From positions 1-64,000 of the IMG/VR virus record IMGVR_UViG_3300005563_000029: 64,000 bases of DNA; one strand, 5' to 3'. How positions within the stretch are numbered: the first letter of the stretch is position 1; each line of letters begins with the position of its first letter. The position numbers and the translations under genes were made by a program. This document shows, one piece after another, positions 1,695 to 56,124 of this stretch. The notes below the pieces were generated by a model. That model was not told the DNA's origin. It saw only the letters and a program-made list of their open reading frames with translations, and did no database searches. Source of the stretch: a virus.

Positions 1695-2654
1695 CTACAC
1701 AGCCACCTGCCGGCCGTCGCGCCACTGCGTGAGCACGGCCTCGTGCCCCACCTGCTCGCCGGTGTCCGGGTCCAACCGGAACCGGCCGAACACGGTCTGC
1801 GTGTCCATCGCCGCCAGCGTCTGCCACAGCGGCCCTGCCTCGGCGGAACCGCACGCGCGGACCGCAGCCTCGGCGATGACGCCGGCCGCATACGCCTGCA
1901 CACCCGGGTAGTCCGGCGCGGCGCCGAACCTGACGCGCCACCGGTCTGTGAAGTTCAACTTCTCCCGGCTGGCATCGGGCGCCCACTGCCCGATCCCGAA
2001 CACGCCGTTCGGGTTGGGGACGTCCTCGGCGAACTGTGTCACGCCGGCCGCGACCGAGCACAGAAACCGCGGAGGGTTCTGCATCGACTGCGCGGATTGA
2101 ACGGTGGCGACGTCATCTTCGTATACCCCGGCGCAGAGGAGGTCCCACGTTCCCGTGGGCGGCGAATCGGGGTTGAGTACCTCGACGGTCAGGCCAGCCG
2201 TGTACGCCGCGTCTCGGGCGCCGGTGACGATGTGGCGACCGAACGTTCCACGGCCGGCACTAGTGAACAGCGGGGCATGTTCTGCAGCGGCGAGATACGC
2301 GACGAACGGGACGGCGTAGCGGCGGGCCGGGGTGAGGACGTTGACGACACGACCGGGCTGGTTCAGGCTGCCGCCCGAACCGCCGTGGTTGAACAGTAGT
2401 CGCCCGGCCACCGCAGCGATCGGGATTGCGGCACGCATCAGCACCGTGGAATACGGCCCGAACAGCAGTTCCGTATGGGCTGCCACGATGGGTAGCTTCT
2501 CGGCCAGGACCGCCCGGTCGCTTTCGTCGTCGACCACGGTCAGATCAACGCCGGCGTCGTCCGCCCACAACCTGAGCCCCCACGCGGCCTGCTGCCCGAA
2601 CTGTGCGAACCGCCCCGTCAGCGACAGGCAGGCGCCGGCGGTCAGGCAGGTCAC
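1695..2654 (-). CDS. solute-binding-protein-like cytoplasmic sensor (Peripla_BP_6 type)
   Basis: 319 residues from a GTG that overlaps the stop of the upstream GntR gene (GTGA), so the two are translationally coupled. The sequence begins directly at the first strand of a branched-chain amino-acid (LivK/AmiC-type) binding fold ('ACLSLTGRFA' with a GLRLW helix, then 'LLFGPYST', 'GTFGRH', 'YPGVQAYAAG'). There is no signal peptide or lipobox and no permease or ATPase gene nearby. AmiC of Pseudomonas shows that such folds can act as cytoplasmic ligand sensors. Here the likely role, by inference, is to sense a small molecule and modulate the coupled GntR repressor. Confidence 0.65.
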   Translation of the reverse strand: MTCLTAGACLSLTGRFAQFGQQAAWGLRLWADDAGVDLTVVDDESDRAVLAEKLPIVAAHTELLFGPYSTVLMRAAIPIAAVAGRLLFNHGGSGGSLNQPGRVVNVLTPARRYAVPFVAYLAAAEHAPLFTSAGRGTFGRHIVTGARDAAYTAGLTVEVLNPDSPPTGTWDLLCAGVYEDDVATVQSAQSMQNPPRFLCSVAAGVTQFAEDVPNPNGVFGIGQWAPDASREKLNFTDRWRVRFGAAPDYPGVQAYAAGVIAEAAVRACGSAEAGPLWQTLAAMDTQTVFGRFRLDPDTGEQVGHEAVLTQWRDGRQVAV

Positions 2655-3409
2655 CGCAACTCCACCCGAAACCGCCACGTGTGCCGGGACGCGTCGGCGA
2701 TCTCCTCCTGCACGTATACCGGCCGGCCATGCACGTCCTCGAACGTGGTGGTGGTGTGAACCACCGTGATGCCGCGGGCCAGGCCCAGCAGGTCCCGTTC
2801 CTCGTCGGTGGGGTTGCGGCCTTCCAGATCAACCCAGGATGTGGCGAGCGGTCCGCGCAGGTCCTCCACGACCCGGGCGGTGCCGCCGCGGATCCGGGGC
2901 AGCTGCGCCAGCGGTGTCCCGGCTGCCCACGTGGCAGGGAACCAGCTGCGTACCAGCCGAACTGGCACGTCATCGGCGAACATCCGGACCAGCCGCATTA
3001 CCGTGTAGTCGCCGTCGTCGAGTCGGAGTTCGTCCGCAACGGGGCCGGGTGCGGCTACGCCATTTTGGACGTCGAGGATTTCTTGGCGCCCGATGATGCC
3101 GTGCTCGGCGACGGTGGCGTTGAATCCGGGCCGGTCAGCGTCGCGGTGGCGTCGCCAGTCGGCGGCGACGATGGCGATGCGTACCGACGGCACGGTGCGC
3201 ACGTGCGGCACCGCGCCTTGGCGCATGACGATTAGCCCGTCGGCGTGGAGTTTCTCCAGTGCTCGGCGAACCGTGATGCGGCTCGTGCCGTACTGGCGGC
3301 AGAGGTCGTGTGCGGATGGTAGTGGCGCGCCGGGGGCGTAGTGCCTGTCGAGGATGGCAGTGCGCAAATCGGCGGCGATTCGTTCCCGTGGTGGCGTCAC
3401 GGTGCTCAT
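2651..3409 (-). CDS. GntR-family regulator, HutC/UTRA subfamily
   Basis: 252 residues from ATG 3409; an alternative ATG at 3430 would add 7 residues and overlap the operator. Residues about 5-70 form the GntR winged helix ('LRTAILDRHYAPGAPLPSAHDLCRQYG', 'SRITVRRALEKLHADGLI' split here), and about 95-250 a UTRA effector domain ('VMRLVRMFADDVPVRLVRSW', 'YVQEEIADA'). It is likely a repressor of itself and of the divergent small gene at 3511, acting on the GTACCCAGGT sites at 3433 and 3483. It overlaps the sensor gene downstream by 4 nt. Confidence 0.85.
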   Translation of the reverse strand: MSTVTPPRERIAADLRTAILDRHYAPGAPLPSAHDLCRQYGTSRITVRRALEKLHADGLIVMRQGAVPHVRTVPSVRIAIVAADWRRHRDADRPGFNATVAEHGIIGRQEILDVQNGVAAPGPVADELRLDDGDYTVMRLVRMFADDVPVRLVRSWFPATWAAGTPLAQLPRIRGGTARVVEDLRGPLATSWVDLEGRNPTDEERDLLGLARGITVVHTTTTFEDVHGRPVYVQEEIADASRHTWRFRVELR

Positions 3410-3431
3410 GCCCACACAGTAGCGCGACATG

Positions 3432-38118: not shown

Positions 38119-38691
38119 TCAGGCCGGCGGGTTGTCGTCGCGCGGGACCGGCGTGCCGAACACGGCGCCGACGCTGGTCACCGCACCCGGGTCGATTCGC
38201 ACGGTCACCGGCGGCAGCGCCTTGCCGTTCACGTCGGTGATGTTGAGGGTGAGGTCGCCGGCCTGTCCGACGTGCGAGCGCAGGTTCGCCGTCAGGGTGT
38301 CGTCGGCGACGGCCAGCTCGCCAAGGTCGGTGTTGTCCTCGACCCAGGTGAACGGGGCCACGAACTCGCCGTTGGGGTCGGAGAAGTCCGAGGGGACTGC
38401 GACTTTCTCGTTGTCGAAGCCGGTCAGGGTGATGGTGACCATGTCGTCGTCGGGCATCGTGAACATGGGGGATCCTTCCGTCGTGCGAGGTACGGGGGTG
38501 CCGAAGATGGCTTCGACGGTGACGATGAGGGCTGGCCGGGCTAGCCAGGCTTCGAAGAGGTCGGCGATGCTGACGACGTGCCGCGCGATGGTACGCAGGT
38601 CGCGGGTGGGCAGGTCGTCGGCGCCTGCGGTGAAAACGGTGGCGGCGGCTTCGAGTGCTGCGGCGCGGCGCCAGGCCCGTTCGGTGGTCAC
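38119..38691 (-). CDS. phage protein with internal FGTPVPR repeat
   Basis: 190 residues, GTG with GGAGG. First 60 residues are helical, the rest beta-rich ('VTITLTGFDNEKVAVPSDFS'). The heptapeptide FGTPVPR occurs twice (about 63-69 and 178-184) with different codons, which may mark a fused duplicate or a cleavage/interaction peptide. A second start at Met76 could make the later domain alone. Unrecognised. Confidence 0.5.
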   Translation of the reverse strand: MTTERAWRRAAALEAAATVFTAGADDLPTRDLRTIARHVVSIADLFEAWLARPALIVTVEAIFGTPVPRTTEGSPMFTMPDDDMVTITLTGFDNEKVAVPSDFSDPNGEFVAPFTWVEDNTDLGELAVADDTLTANLRSHVGQAGDLTLNITDVNGKALPPVTVRIDPGAVTSVGAVFGTPVPRDDNPPA

Positions 38692-52392: not shown

Positions 52393-53148
52393 CTAGGCGT
52401 CCCAGTCGAATTGGAGAACGAACATGGTGGGGTTCATAACCATCTCGTTTACCTCGGTAACACGGCCGGTGTCTGTAAAGGCTGTCCGTGCGGCGCAGAG
52501 CACGTAGGGCACTCGGTGCAGCTCAAGACGCTCGCTCTCGACGTCCGTAGCTTCGCGGGACCAGACCTGCATGCTAAAGGCCGCAACTTCAAAGCCCAGG
52601 TCGCGAAGGCGTCCATAGGTTCCGCCTGGACCTGTATCGGGCTCCATGATTCGACTACCACGAACGATGTCGGCGGGCAGGTAGGAATCGGCAAGCAAGG
52701 CGGCCTGCCCATCGACGAGGTAACGCCGCGATCGCATGCCGGCGTCGGCGGTATCAAGAACCCTTGCAACGCGCTCTGGCGGATCCGCGTAGCCGATCTT
52801 CAGCTGATCGCTCGCGAATTCGCGACCTTCAATGTCGTACTCCCACATCGACTTGCTGTGCTTCCATGCGGAACCGCGGGTCGTCTCAACGCGGACGATC
52901 GGCTTGAAGTCGCGAAGCCGCTGGTACTCGCGTACATCGCGCACGAAAACACCACTGCCCTTGCGGGACTCGGTAAGACCTTCAGCGTCAAGCAGCGCCA
53001 AAGCGCGCCGAACCATGCCGCGGGACAGGTCCCACTGGTCAATAAGGTCGGACTCACTAGGGAGCTTGGCGCCAACAGCGTATTCGCCAGCAAGGATCTT
53101 GCTGCGGAGGTCTTCCGCAAGCTGCCGGTACCTCGGCCCCTCGGCCAC
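52393..53148 (-). CDS. GntR-family regulator, KorSA/HutC-like (UTRA)
   Basis: 251 residues from GTG 53148 with GGGAG; an ATG at 53172 is possible. GntR winged helix (about 1-72: 'RQLAEDLRSKILAGEYAVG', 'DLSRGMVRRALALLDAEGL') and a UTRA domain ('GYADPPERVARVLDTAD', 'RRYLVDGQAALLADSYL', 'TEVNEMVMNPTMFVLQFDWDA'). It resembles KorSA-type repressors of pSAM2-like elements. It is likely to repress itself and the transfer operon through the AACCTATGnAG sites. Terminated by the hairpin at 52343-52370. Confidence 0.85.
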   Translation of the reverse strand: MAEGPRYRQLAEDLRSKILAGEYAVGAKLPSESDLIDQWDLSRGMVRRALALLDAEGLTESRKGSGVFVRDVREYQRLRDFKPIVRVETTRGSAWKHSKSMWEYDIEGREFASDQLKIGYADPPERVARVLDTADAGMRSRRYLVDGQAALLADSYLPADIVRGSRIMEPDTGPGGTYGRLRDLGFEVAAFSMQVWSREATDVESERLELHRVPYVLCAARTAFTDTGRVTEVNEMVMNPTMFVLQFDWDA

Positions 53149-53181
53149 CGAACCACTCCCACCTCTATGCATAAGATCAAC

Positions 53182-53277: not shown

Positions 53278-53535
53278 TCACCCCAGCCACGTGATCTGGG
53301 TGACGTGGACCTCGGCAAGATGCTCCAGGATCACGAAGGTAATGAAGCCGCGGCCTTCAGCAAAGGAGACGATGCGCTGCACGTGGTGCGAGTCCGTCGA
53401 CTCGTCCGGCCGTCGCTGGAAGTTCCATGGGTCGGCGCTGACCAACACGACCGTCTCTACCAGATCATCAATCGCCTCGTAGGGGATCAAAATCAGCTGC
53501 GCCTGGGCGGCGGGGCTGAACTCAGAGTTGTACAC
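53278..53535 (-). CDS. RelE/ParE-like toxin
   Basis: 85 residues. RelE-type layout: 'EFSPAAQAQLILIPYEAI' start, 'SADPWNF' turn with the family's DP, 'VQRIVSFAEGRGFITFVILE' strands and 'VHVTQITWLG' end. RelE toxins cleave mRNA at ribosomes; catalytic residues vary. It is 6 bp downstream of the DUF6247-type antitoxin. A toxin-antitoxin pair fits plasmid or prophage maintenance. Confidence 0.7.
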   Translation of the reverse strand: MYNSEFSPAAQAQLILIPYEAIDDLVETVVLVSADPWNFQRRPDESTDSHHVQRIVSFAEGRGFITFVILEHLAEVHVTQITWLG

Positions 53536-53541
53536 CGCAGG

Positions 53542-53928
53542 TCAGCGAAACACCATCACGGACCGAAGCTTGTCCAACTGAACCTTCGAGGCGCCCTTTG
53601 CTTCAAGGATCGCCAGCACCTCGTTTGGGTCGGCTCGCTCACTGTCCGGGACGCCGTTGCGGGCGTAGTCGTCCCACTTCGCCAGGAAAGCCCTGTGCTT
53701 CACCGGGTCACACCAGACCGCGGCCTCAAGTCGCCAGCGCTTCAGCATTTCGTTCAGCGGGGCGAGACTGTCGGACTCCTTGGCTTCGGCAACCGCCCGG
53801 TCAAGGGCCGAATTGAACCGCTCAAGCAATCCTGGTTCAGCAGCGTTGACCAGCACTGCCCGGATCGCAGCCGGCGTGGCTGCAGGTACAGACATCACCT
53901 TCGGACTGTGGATCGGCTGGGCTGACAT
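53542..53928 (-). CDS. DUF6247-like antitoxin
   Basis: 128 residues from ATG 53928. Helical: 'TPAAIRAVLVNAAEPGLLERF' and 'ALDRAVAEAKESDSLAPLNE' then 'MLKRWRLEAAVWCDPVKHRAF' in a style I recall as DUF6247, which accompanies RelE-like toxins in Streptomyces. Precedes the toxin gene and lacks a clear DNA-binding motif at the N-terminus. Family assignment is from memory of the pattern. Confidence 0.6.
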   Translation of the reverse strand: MSAQPIHSPKVMSVPAATPAAIRAVLVNAAEPGLLERFNSALDRAVAEAKESDSLAPLNEMLKRWRLEAAVWCDPVKHRAFLAKWDDYARNGVPDSERADPNEVLAILEAKGASKVQLDKLRSVMVFR

Positions 53929-54055
53929 GCGTCCAACGTTACGACGCCACGCCACATCTGTCAGCATCACCTGGTGCTTTGGTGGGTGCACTTTTCTGCA
54001 CGAGCTGCTGGTGAAGTCCAGCTTCTGTGCGCCGGCAACGGACGGGATCCCGGCC

Positions 54056-54451
54056 CTAGCCACAAGCCGCCCCTGCCTGCGCCTGAACCCGCTTCAGCGG
54101 CGCCGCGGGAACGGCGTTGACGTCGTAACCCGGATTGTCGGCCAGCCAAGCTGCCTGCGTGCAGAACCCCGGGTCCTTCGAGGTCTCCGCCGCGAGGTTG
54201 CTGAACGCGAGCGTGCAGTTCTGCAAGTTCACCCCGCCGAGTTGCTGTGCCGTCGCGGGCTGGCCCGGAACGATCACGCGTTCGATGATGTCGCCTTGCG
54301 ACTTCAGGTTGCATGTGGCCGGCGGCTGCGAACTGCTGGTGTCGTCGACCGCGGCCTGACTGGTCGGCGCTGCGGCGGGGCTGCTGGTGCTGCTGGAACA
54401 GCCAGCCAGCAGCAATACGGCACCTGCAACGGCAAGAACGGATGTGCGCAC
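54056..54451 (-). CDS. lipoprotein, unknown
   Basis: 131 residues, GTG with GGGGGG. Signal peptide with lipobox 'LLLAGC' (Cys18) then Ser/Thr/Ala-rich linker and a folded C-terminus with four cysteines ('ATCNLKSQ', 'QNCTLAF', 'GFCTQAA', 'GAACG'). Surface-exposed; a lysogenic-conversion or exclusion role is possible for a phage-borne lipoprotein, without direct evidence. Confidence 0.75.
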   Translation of the reverse strand: MRTSVLAVAGAVLLLAGCSSSTSSPAAAPTSQAAVDDTSSSQPPATCNLKSQGDIIERVIVPGQPATAQQLGGVNLQNCTLAFSNLAAETSKDPGFCTQAAWLADNPGYDVNAVPAAPLKRVQAQAGAACG

Positions 54452-55054: not shown

Positions 55055-55111
55055 GTGACGCGTCTCTACACAATAGCCCATATCACCGCCCCTATGGGGA
55101 GGAACCGGTGA
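55055..55111 (+). CDS. 18-aa leader peptide coupled to the replication gene
   Basis: GTG 55055 is preceded by AAGGAG; the frame ends in TGA that overlaps the next start (GTGA at 55108-55111). Peptide 'TRLYTIAHITAPMGRNR' after the start. A short, well-positioned reading frame with translation coupling could regulate expression of the initiator. Unrecognised. Confidence 0.45.
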   Translation: MTRLYTIAHITAPMGRNR

Positions 55112-56124
55112 TCACGGCCTCACCCATTCCCGAGGGCGTTGGCTGGGGCCCCGCCGTGCACTCCACGTCTCGCGACGTTCGTATCTCGCGCCGCGCGCTG
55201 GGGACTCTGGTGGAGTTGCTCAGCTACCCGCCGGGCTGGGACATGAACGCCGACAAGCTCGCCAAGCTCGGGCGTGAGGGTCGCGAAGCCACGCGCAAGG
55301 CAATGCGGGAGCTTGAGGATGCCGGCTACGTGATCCACCTGGTGTACCGGGGGACCGGCGGACGGATGCTGACTGCTTCGTTCGCAGGCAACACGCCGGA
55401 AGTTGCCAGGTCTTTGGCGGACGCCTGGTTGGAGGAGAACGCCCATCTCAACGCAAAGCAAAAGCCCAGCTCGCACCGAGGTACGGCAGACCGGGCGTCG
55501 GTAGACCAGGCGTCGGGTAACCGGGCGTCGGCTGACCGGACGTCGGTGGATCGGGCGTCTTCTATAAGACAGACAGAAGAAACTGACAGAAAGACTGACT
55601 CCAAGACAGACGAGAACACTGTGCGGGTTGCGGCTTCGCCGCAACCGAAGAGTTTTGGGTCAGAAGCGATCAACGACGGAACGGCAGCTGCGGCAGGCGG
55701 CGCCTCCGGCGGGGGCACCGCTGGCGCGGCGCCGACACAACTGATTGTTGTTGAAGAAGATTCGAACGACCTCGAACGACGGACCGCCGCTGTGGACCGT
55801 CGTCTTGCCTGCAACCGGTACATCGAACTGGTCTGGCACCTCAGCGACGAGGCTGTAACCGGCGTCATCGAGGAGCTTTTCAACACCAAGCCTCGAATGT
55901 GGCGCTGGGCACACAACGCCATGTGCGAGCACTACGGCTTGCCGCGGATCAAGAGCGAGTACGACGACTACGAGGCTCCGCCGACGCCAAAGCATGCGCG
56001 CATGGTGTACGAGAAGGCGCTGCGCCTGTCGTCGAAGAACTCTGACTGGGAGGACATCCTGGTTGATCCGCTTAACACCCTGAACCGCCCCGATCGGCCG
56101 CCGTCGTGGGCCGGCGCGGCCTAA
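55108..56124 (+). CDS. replication initiator-like winged-helix protein with internal repeats
   Basis: 338 residues, GTG with GGGGAGG. Winged helix (about 20-90: 'DVRISRRALGTLVELLSYPP', 'KLAKLGREGREATRKAMREL', 'AGYVIHLVYR'), as in phage replisome organisers. Middle 125-150: five 5-residue repeats ('RASVD', 'QASGN', 'RASAD', 'RTSVD') made by 15-bp DNA repeats, then an acidic linker. C-terminal half ('RYIELVWHLSDEAVTGVIEEL', 'RPPSWAGAA') is conserved-looking and could contact a helicase or primase. First gene of the early operon; it probably starts element replication. Confidence 0.65.
   Translation: MITASPIPEGVGWGPAVHSTSRDVRISRRALGTLVELLSYPPGWDMNADKLAKLGREGREATRKAMRELEDAGYVIHLVYRGTGGRMLTASFAGNTPEVARSLADAWLEENAHLNAKQKPSSHRGTADRASVDQASGNRASADRTSVDRASSIRQTEETDRKTDSKTDENTVRVAASPQPKSFGSEAINDGTAAAAGGASGGGTAGAAPTQLIVVEEDSNDLERRTAAVDRRLACNRYIELVWHLSDEAVTGVIEELFNTKPRMWRWAHNAMCEHYGLPRIKSEYDDYEAPPTPKHARMVYEKALRLSSKNSDWEDILVDPLNTLNRPDRPPSWAGAA
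55480..55554 (+). repeat. iteron-like 15-bp repeats inside the replication gene
   Basis: Five tandem 15-bp units (55480, 55495, 55510, 55525, 55540), consensus GCGTCGGnnGACCGG with changes, plus the start of a sixth at 55555. They are followed by a sequence about 56% A+T (55555-55620) in GC-rich surroundings. Layout equals the lambda O gene: iterons and an unwinding region within the initiator coding sequence. Confidence 0.6.

Follow-up and report, generated by a model that had tools for sequence, protein, structure and literature searches.

Genomic Context of the Putative Initiator Gene

The window analyzed here is a stretch of 64,000 bp, positions 1 to 64,000 of the IMG/VR virus record IMGVR_UViG_3300005563_000029. 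This record is a 133,834-bp contig in which bases 1–120 and 133715–133834 are identical, and it is therefore probably a complete circular assembly. The structural genes point leftward and occupy its first 36 kb. A rightward run of genes spans approximately 55–80 kb. A leftward operon extending from 133 to 81 kb encodes an integrase, a recombination-directionality-like factor, an SNF2 helicase, methyltransferases, RusA, and ParB-like proteins, together with a second initiator and a DnaB-type helicase.

The rightward run begins with a putative replication initiator gene of 338 codons (55108–56124, + strand), recognized from its open reading frame, PHROG matches, and tblastn. Its GTG start is directly preceded by GGGGAGG. 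The upstream neighbors lie on the minus strand, in agreement with the initial annotation, which described this gene as the first of an operon. A scan for sigma-70-type promoters identified none near the gene. The four genes on its 3′ side encode a GIY-YIG-like protein, two proteins of unknown function, and an HNH protein. No helicase or helicase loader gene adjoins it, and no IstB/DnaC match was found in the record. A divergent GntR/UTRA regulator gene (52393–53172, − strand; Pfam GntR E = 7e-17, UTRA E = 2e-11) possibly controls the initiator module. In a Streptomyces albidoflavus plasmid, a GntR gene (34% identity over 101 aa) is located 5′ of a related initiator gene and dnaB.

Another GntR/UTRA-type regulator gene (2651–3430, − strand) falls in the same PHROG (10724) as that at 52393–53172. 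A gene for a Peripla_BP_6 periplasmic binding protein-like product (1695–2678, − strand) lies beside HxlR-type and GntR-type regulator genes. At 53278–54063 (− strand), a DUF6247 gene is followed by a small ORF, possibly forming a toxin–antitoxin-like pair. A tRNA-Arg (tcg) is predicted at 38580–38673 (+ strand) inside the leftward gene block. Farther along the record, 74460–75317 (+ strand) encodes a Ku-type DNA end-binding protein (Pfam Ku E = 4e-43).

Domain Organization of the Predicted Protein

The predicted protein consists of three parts. An N-terminal winged-helix DNA-binding domain (NTD; residues ~1–111, 55108–55440) is delineated by AlphaFold2 and by alignment with 13 phage and plasmid relatives. 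In the full-length model, residues 21–110 have block-mean pLDDT values of 83–96, with helices at residues 28–39, 48–54, and 59–72 and strands at 75–81 and 87–93; the winged helix proposed in the initial annotation thus holds as a structure prediction. A linker predicted to be disordered follows (residues ~122–217, 55471–55758; pLDDT ~38–49) and contains the tandem array described below. The C-terminal part (residues 219–338, 55762–56121) is predicted to be helical, with helices at 219–244, 251–260, 262–276, and 294–310 modeled at low to moderate confidence. It has no Pfam match and belongs to no recognized family.

The protein matches PHROGs 1456 (E = 7e-14), 37920 (E = 8e-9), and 4707 (“replication initiation protein,” E = 1e-8), and tblastn retrieves phage genes annotated as RepA-like replication initiators. 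The Pfam HTH_36 profile gives E = 0.12 and 12.6 bits, below the threshold (cut-off 25). No match at E ≤ 1 was obtained for Phage_rep_O (PF04492) or, searching the whole record, for RepA_N (PF06970). A fold search of the PDB with the NTD returned only generic winged helices, with ArsR/MarR-like regulators and the DnaD NTD among them, all with E > 0.05. A sequence search of the PDB with the protein gave nothing useful, and a fold search against viral models returned phage proteins of the same kind as these initiators.

A Tandem Array and an A-Rich Segment inside the Gene

The segment 55486–55560, within the linker-coding part of the gene, consists of five 15-bp units on the + strand, which we call iterons: GCAGACCGGGCGTCG (55486–55500), GTAGACCAGGCGTCG (55501–55515), GGTAACCGGGCGTCG (55516–55530), GCTGACCGGACGTCG (55531–55545), and GTGGATCGGGCGTCT (55546–55560). 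They encode the peptide ADRAS-VDQAS-GNRAS-ADRTS-VDRAS. Tandem Repeats Finder (TRF) describes the array with a period of 15, 5.1 copies, 77% matches, and a score of 87. It is the sole case with a score of at least 70 in the 133,834-bp record, and the best score among 12 first-order Markov shuffles of the record was 74. Four of the five units contain the half-site pair CGG-N4-CC[G/A], which the fifth, more degenerate unit lacks. On the + strand of the record, this pair recurs at least three times at exact 15-bp spacing in the array only. The A-tract of the units is degenerate (CAGA, TAGA, GTAA, and CTGA). Stop codons occur in the +1 frame of the array, so that the frame in use is fixed.

The 60 bp directly 3′ of the array (55561–55620) are A-rich and purine-biased and form a candidate DNA-unwinding element (DUE). 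Their G+C content is 42–43%, compared with 64% for the whole gene, which places them in the bottom 1% of all 60-nt windows of the gene. Both the five tandem units within coding sequence and the A+T-richer stretch behind them had been reported in the initial annotation, and both are confirmed here.

Related Initiators and Their Linkers

Scans of genomes and viral contigs with the whole protein alone yielded no relatives, nor did a nucleotide search of phages. Relatives were found via small alignments, the 14-sequence alignment being too diverse for scanning. In the alignment with 13 relatives, identity over the domain is 25–40%. Via L010, a Prescottella plasmid protein with a related domain, the NTD is connected with initiators of Arthrobacter, Microbacterium, and Gordonia phages, and also with those of Staphylococcus, Streptococcus, Lactobacillus (LL-H), and Lactococcus (TP901-1) phages. 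On sequence comparison, it belongs, together with TP901-1 Rep, to the HTH_36-like group of PHROGs 1456, 37920, and 4707; homologous winged-helix NTDs also occur in BeatusComedenti gp41, VanLee gp45, and PaV-LD ORF005R. TP901-1 Rep is annotated as “replication protein, experimental,” and we take the TP901-1 origin repeats to be located in rep. Its C-terminus is DnaB_2/DnaD-like, whereas the C-terminal part of our predicted protein is an orphan. Related initiators are encoded by phages and plasmids of Actinobacteria, Firmicutes, Bacteroides, and cyanobacteria. Their genes adjoin those for SSB, a primase/helicase, DnaB, or a DnaC/AAA loader, a replication neighborhood that differs from that of the window's gene, which has neither helicase nor loader next door. 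In an initiator of a Streptomyces zaomyceticus plasmid (L009, 2641–4179), the winged-helix domain is tandemly duplicated (354-bp repeat, 91% matches).

Like the gene in the window, many of these relatives carry an array of 14- to 16-bp units directly behind the DNA-binding domain, and an A-rich dip usually comes next. In 49 representatives, we measured periodicity at 23 lags (8–30) in the sequence following the winged helix, over a maximum of 270 nt. The best lag was 14, 15, 16, or 30 nt, four of the 23 lags tried, in 26 representatives, and 15 nt in 16 of the 49. In 14 of the 24 members that carry an array, the window's gene among them, the 60 nt that come next belong to the lowest tenth of the gene in G+C content, and this position is at or near the G+C minimum of the gene in many relatives. 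About half of the representatives have no such array, above all the Gilgamesh-like branch of Streptomyces phages and plasmids, in which the domain is kept and no array directly follows it. The initial annotation had named absence of the repeats from a conserved gene as an argument against an origin; by that measure the outcome is mixed, as this branch shows such a pattern and roughly half of the representatives carry the array. The closest relative, L023 (52–55% identity over the domain), has a degenerate array (GAAAACCACGGGCCG / GTTAACCACGGGCCG) in the same shifted frame as the array in the window, and its contig also has a DnaB gene at a distance of about 3 kb. None of the relatives found was close enough to follow repeat number over short times.

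From 23 relatives, with the window's gene and its closest relative left out, we learned the motif nCGnCGGAAAAnCCG. It ranks copies of the array 48th, 177th, 748th, and 1617th of 267,640 sites, at exact 15-bp spacing. RepA_N iterons have been reported to be direct repeats in which inverted repeats converge toward a poly-A tract (PMC7145576). The family motif, CGG-AAAAn-CCG, fits this form; the copies in the window keep the CGG/CC[G/A] pair without the A-tract. Elsewhere in the record, a lone match to the window's iteron, GGAGACCAGGCGTCG (79531–79545, + strand), scores about as well as the copies of the array. We did not treat it as a second binding cluster, because it stands alone and 2 of 12 shuffles also produced sites with scores of 17.5 or more.

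The predicted protein might instead be a transcription regulator and the array its operator, with no connection to replication. Its winged helix is generic, with ArsR/MarR-like regulators among the PDB matches as well as the DnaD NTD, and the gene is the first of its operon with a GntR gene nearby. However, an operator array 380 bp inside a gene would be unusual, and the nearest homologs are annotated as replication initiators and lie beside replication genes. We therefore regard a purely regulatory role as very improbable.

The Repeats Appear to Be Kept as DNA Rather than as Peptide

Copy-to-copy DNA identity in the array exceeds that obtained by synonymous shuffling of the gene's own codons (P = 0.025). 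In the same test, 48 unselected relatives combined gave P = 2.6e-7 and the 23 array-bearing relatives, a selected set, P = 2e-12; these values are optimistic, as the relatives share ancestry and are not fully independent. Recent slippage could also raise the DNA identity between copies.

Comparison of reading frames bears on the same question. The unit GGTAGACCRGGCGTC of the window encodes a VDRAS-type peptide, while the units GGAGAACCAGGCGTC of L024 (also found as L051, Jiangella asiatica) and GGTTTTCCGGGCGTC of L025 encode GEPGV and GFPGV, respectively. The register match between the window's unit and those of the relatives is supported by a permutation test (P = 0.004). Read in the frame of the relatives, this unit of the window would encode GRPGV, but two stop codons fall across the array, which indicates that the array left that frame some time ago. 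Its flanks are in the usual frame, with the winged helix before and “IRQTE” after (IRRTE in L024). Copies in two frames also occur within single genes: the first unit of L024 is 14 nt long and stands in a different frame, and the last copy in L030 encodes ENQAS. The unit of L014 is 14 bp long (97% over 3.4 copies), so that the frame changes from copy to copy; the unit of L008 is also 14 bp long, and copies in L015 are spaced at 16 bp. Because the unit is read in other frames in the relatives and the periods include 14 and 16 bp, selection seems to act on the DNA. Such frame shifts, as judged from the sequences, are possible for binding sites and not for peptide repeats.

One could suppose that the repeat matters at the protein level only, as a flexible five-residue linker repeat that slippage has spread, the DNA itself playing no role. 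The linker is indeed predicted to be disordered, a 15-bp unit preserves the frame, and most array-bearing relatives have 15-bp periods, which give peptide repeats too. Nearly identical DNA units in different frames, both across relatives and within one gene, the 14- and 16-bp periods, the synonymous-shuffle results, and the stop codons of the window's array in the relatives' frame all argue against this, and we consider it improbable. The initial annotation's statement that the repeats force a five-residue peptide repeat is likewise too simple, since nearly the same DNA stands in another frame in relatives. The repeats thus appear to be kept for their DNA rather than for the encoded peptide, and the locus offers a clear case of a coding stretch that seems to be maintained as DNA whatever the frame.

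A Candidate In-Gene Origin Compared with Known Systems

An iteron layout inside the initiator gene is already known from some plasmids and phages. In lambda, iterons with 18-bp units lie inside the O gene beside an AT-rich region. The initial annotation had proposed a lambda-O-like origin for this locus. The anatomy of the family and the DNA-level conservation of its repeats lend good support to an initiator with in-gene iterons beside an AT-rich element, a layout that the window shares with ori-lambda in its sequence anatomy. The likeness to lambda O is an analogy only: there is no Phage_rep_O homology, the units are 15 bp long, and no P-like loader gene is adjacent.

The RepA_N initiators of pSK41 and pTZ2162 and the RepA of PLE also have a winged-helix NTD. 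In pSK41, as in the window, the iterons lie in the rep gene between the NTD and the C-terminal domain (CTD); the NTD of its Rep binds four boxes located centrally in rep, and the linker encoded there is dispensable (PMC5703833). RepA_N iterons form an inverted repeat around an A-tract, whereas those of the window are G+C-rich with a degenerate A-tract; moreover, the window contains no PF06970 match, and the PLE origin is noncoding. The staphylococcal hybrid initiator of pPR9, which supports autonomous replication, combines an HTH_36-type (PF13730) NTD related to a phage replication protein with a pSK41-like CTD (PMC5703833), unlike the orphan CTD of the window's protein. SPP1 oriL, within gene 38, comprises direct repeats and an AT-rich DUE (PMC6316719). 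The resemblance to the window is in layout. SPP1 differs in having its loader (gp39) and helicase (gp40), and in that its initiator gp38 serves a further origin as well. For RepA proteins of mycobacterial prophages, a 2020 study could go no further than suggesting an origin upstream of or within repA (PMC7157519).

The reading that we favor, and hold to be reasonably probable, is an in-gene iteron origin whose units bind the winged-helix NTD of the protein encoded around them. By analogy with pSK41 (PMC5703833) and SPP1 oriL (PMC6316719), we infer binding, opening, recruitment, and replication at the array as follows. Several protein molecules would bind the five 15-bp sites through their NTDs, the helix would open in the A-rich stretch directly 3′ of the array, and the C-terminal part would bring in host or phage replication proteins. 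For the most part, the linker peptide would be carried along by the DNA array as a passenger. On our best reading, the locus would work like ori-lambda, pSK41 RepA_N, or SPP1 oriL, while the protein would be a member of the HTH_36/PHROG 1456 group and not of the lambda O or RepA_N families. The gene would then be another case of the known layout, of interest for its frame-independent iterons. If this reading is true, it points to the origin of a large phage that is G+C-rich and of actinobacterial type. It also suggests a simple rule for finding origins in many other phages: where an HTH_36-type initiator gene has encoded its winged helix, repeats of 14–16 bp and an A-rich dip should come next.

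A Second Initiator Gene Adjacent to a DnaB-Type Helicase Gene

The second initiator gene (106858–108234, − strand) matches PHROGs 3171 (E = 7e-43) and 8064 (E = 2e-36) and encodes an O-like C-terminus. It lies close upstream of the DnaB-type gene (105309–106244, − strand; DnaB_C match 105339–106043). Since the phage has this second, helicase-linked initiator, the module in the window might serve as an accessory origin, or simply as a cluster of binding sites, and not as the working origin of the phage. Lytic replication could thus start at the second initiator beside DnaB (105–108 kb), the array being a genuine binding-site cluster that is accessory (e.g., for lysogenic or plasmid-like maintenance), regulatory, or vestigial. 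Besides the matches just cited, this would accord with the company of the second initiator in its leftward operon (RusA, ParB, the SNF2 helicase, the recombination-directionality-like factor, and the integrase), with the lack of a helicase or loader gene beside the window's initiator gene, and with the occurrence of a PHROG 3171 initiator in none of ten related records. Yet repeats in the linker of the second initiator are weak and nonsignificant (lag test, P = 0.24 by shuffling and 0.54 by synonymous shuffling), and we rejected it as a rival iteron array. The array and A-rich dip in the window look complete, and SPP1 shows that one phage can have two origins (PMC6316719). We consider an accessory, regulatory, or vestigial array rather unlikely.

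The in-gene origin that we favor may be extended, tentatively, to the whole family. In its phage and plasmid members, the linker joining the DNA-binding and recruitment domains would be encoded by an iteron origin selected as DNA in any frame, with the linker peptide a by-product that changes at each frame shift of the array, and the present phage would carry it as a second, independent initiator–origin module beside the O-like/DnaB module.

Also on the minus strand, 126316–128235 encodes a protein with matches to exonuclease and to P-loop ATPase families and with a LAGLIDADG domain at residues 410–470, possibly reflecting an intein.
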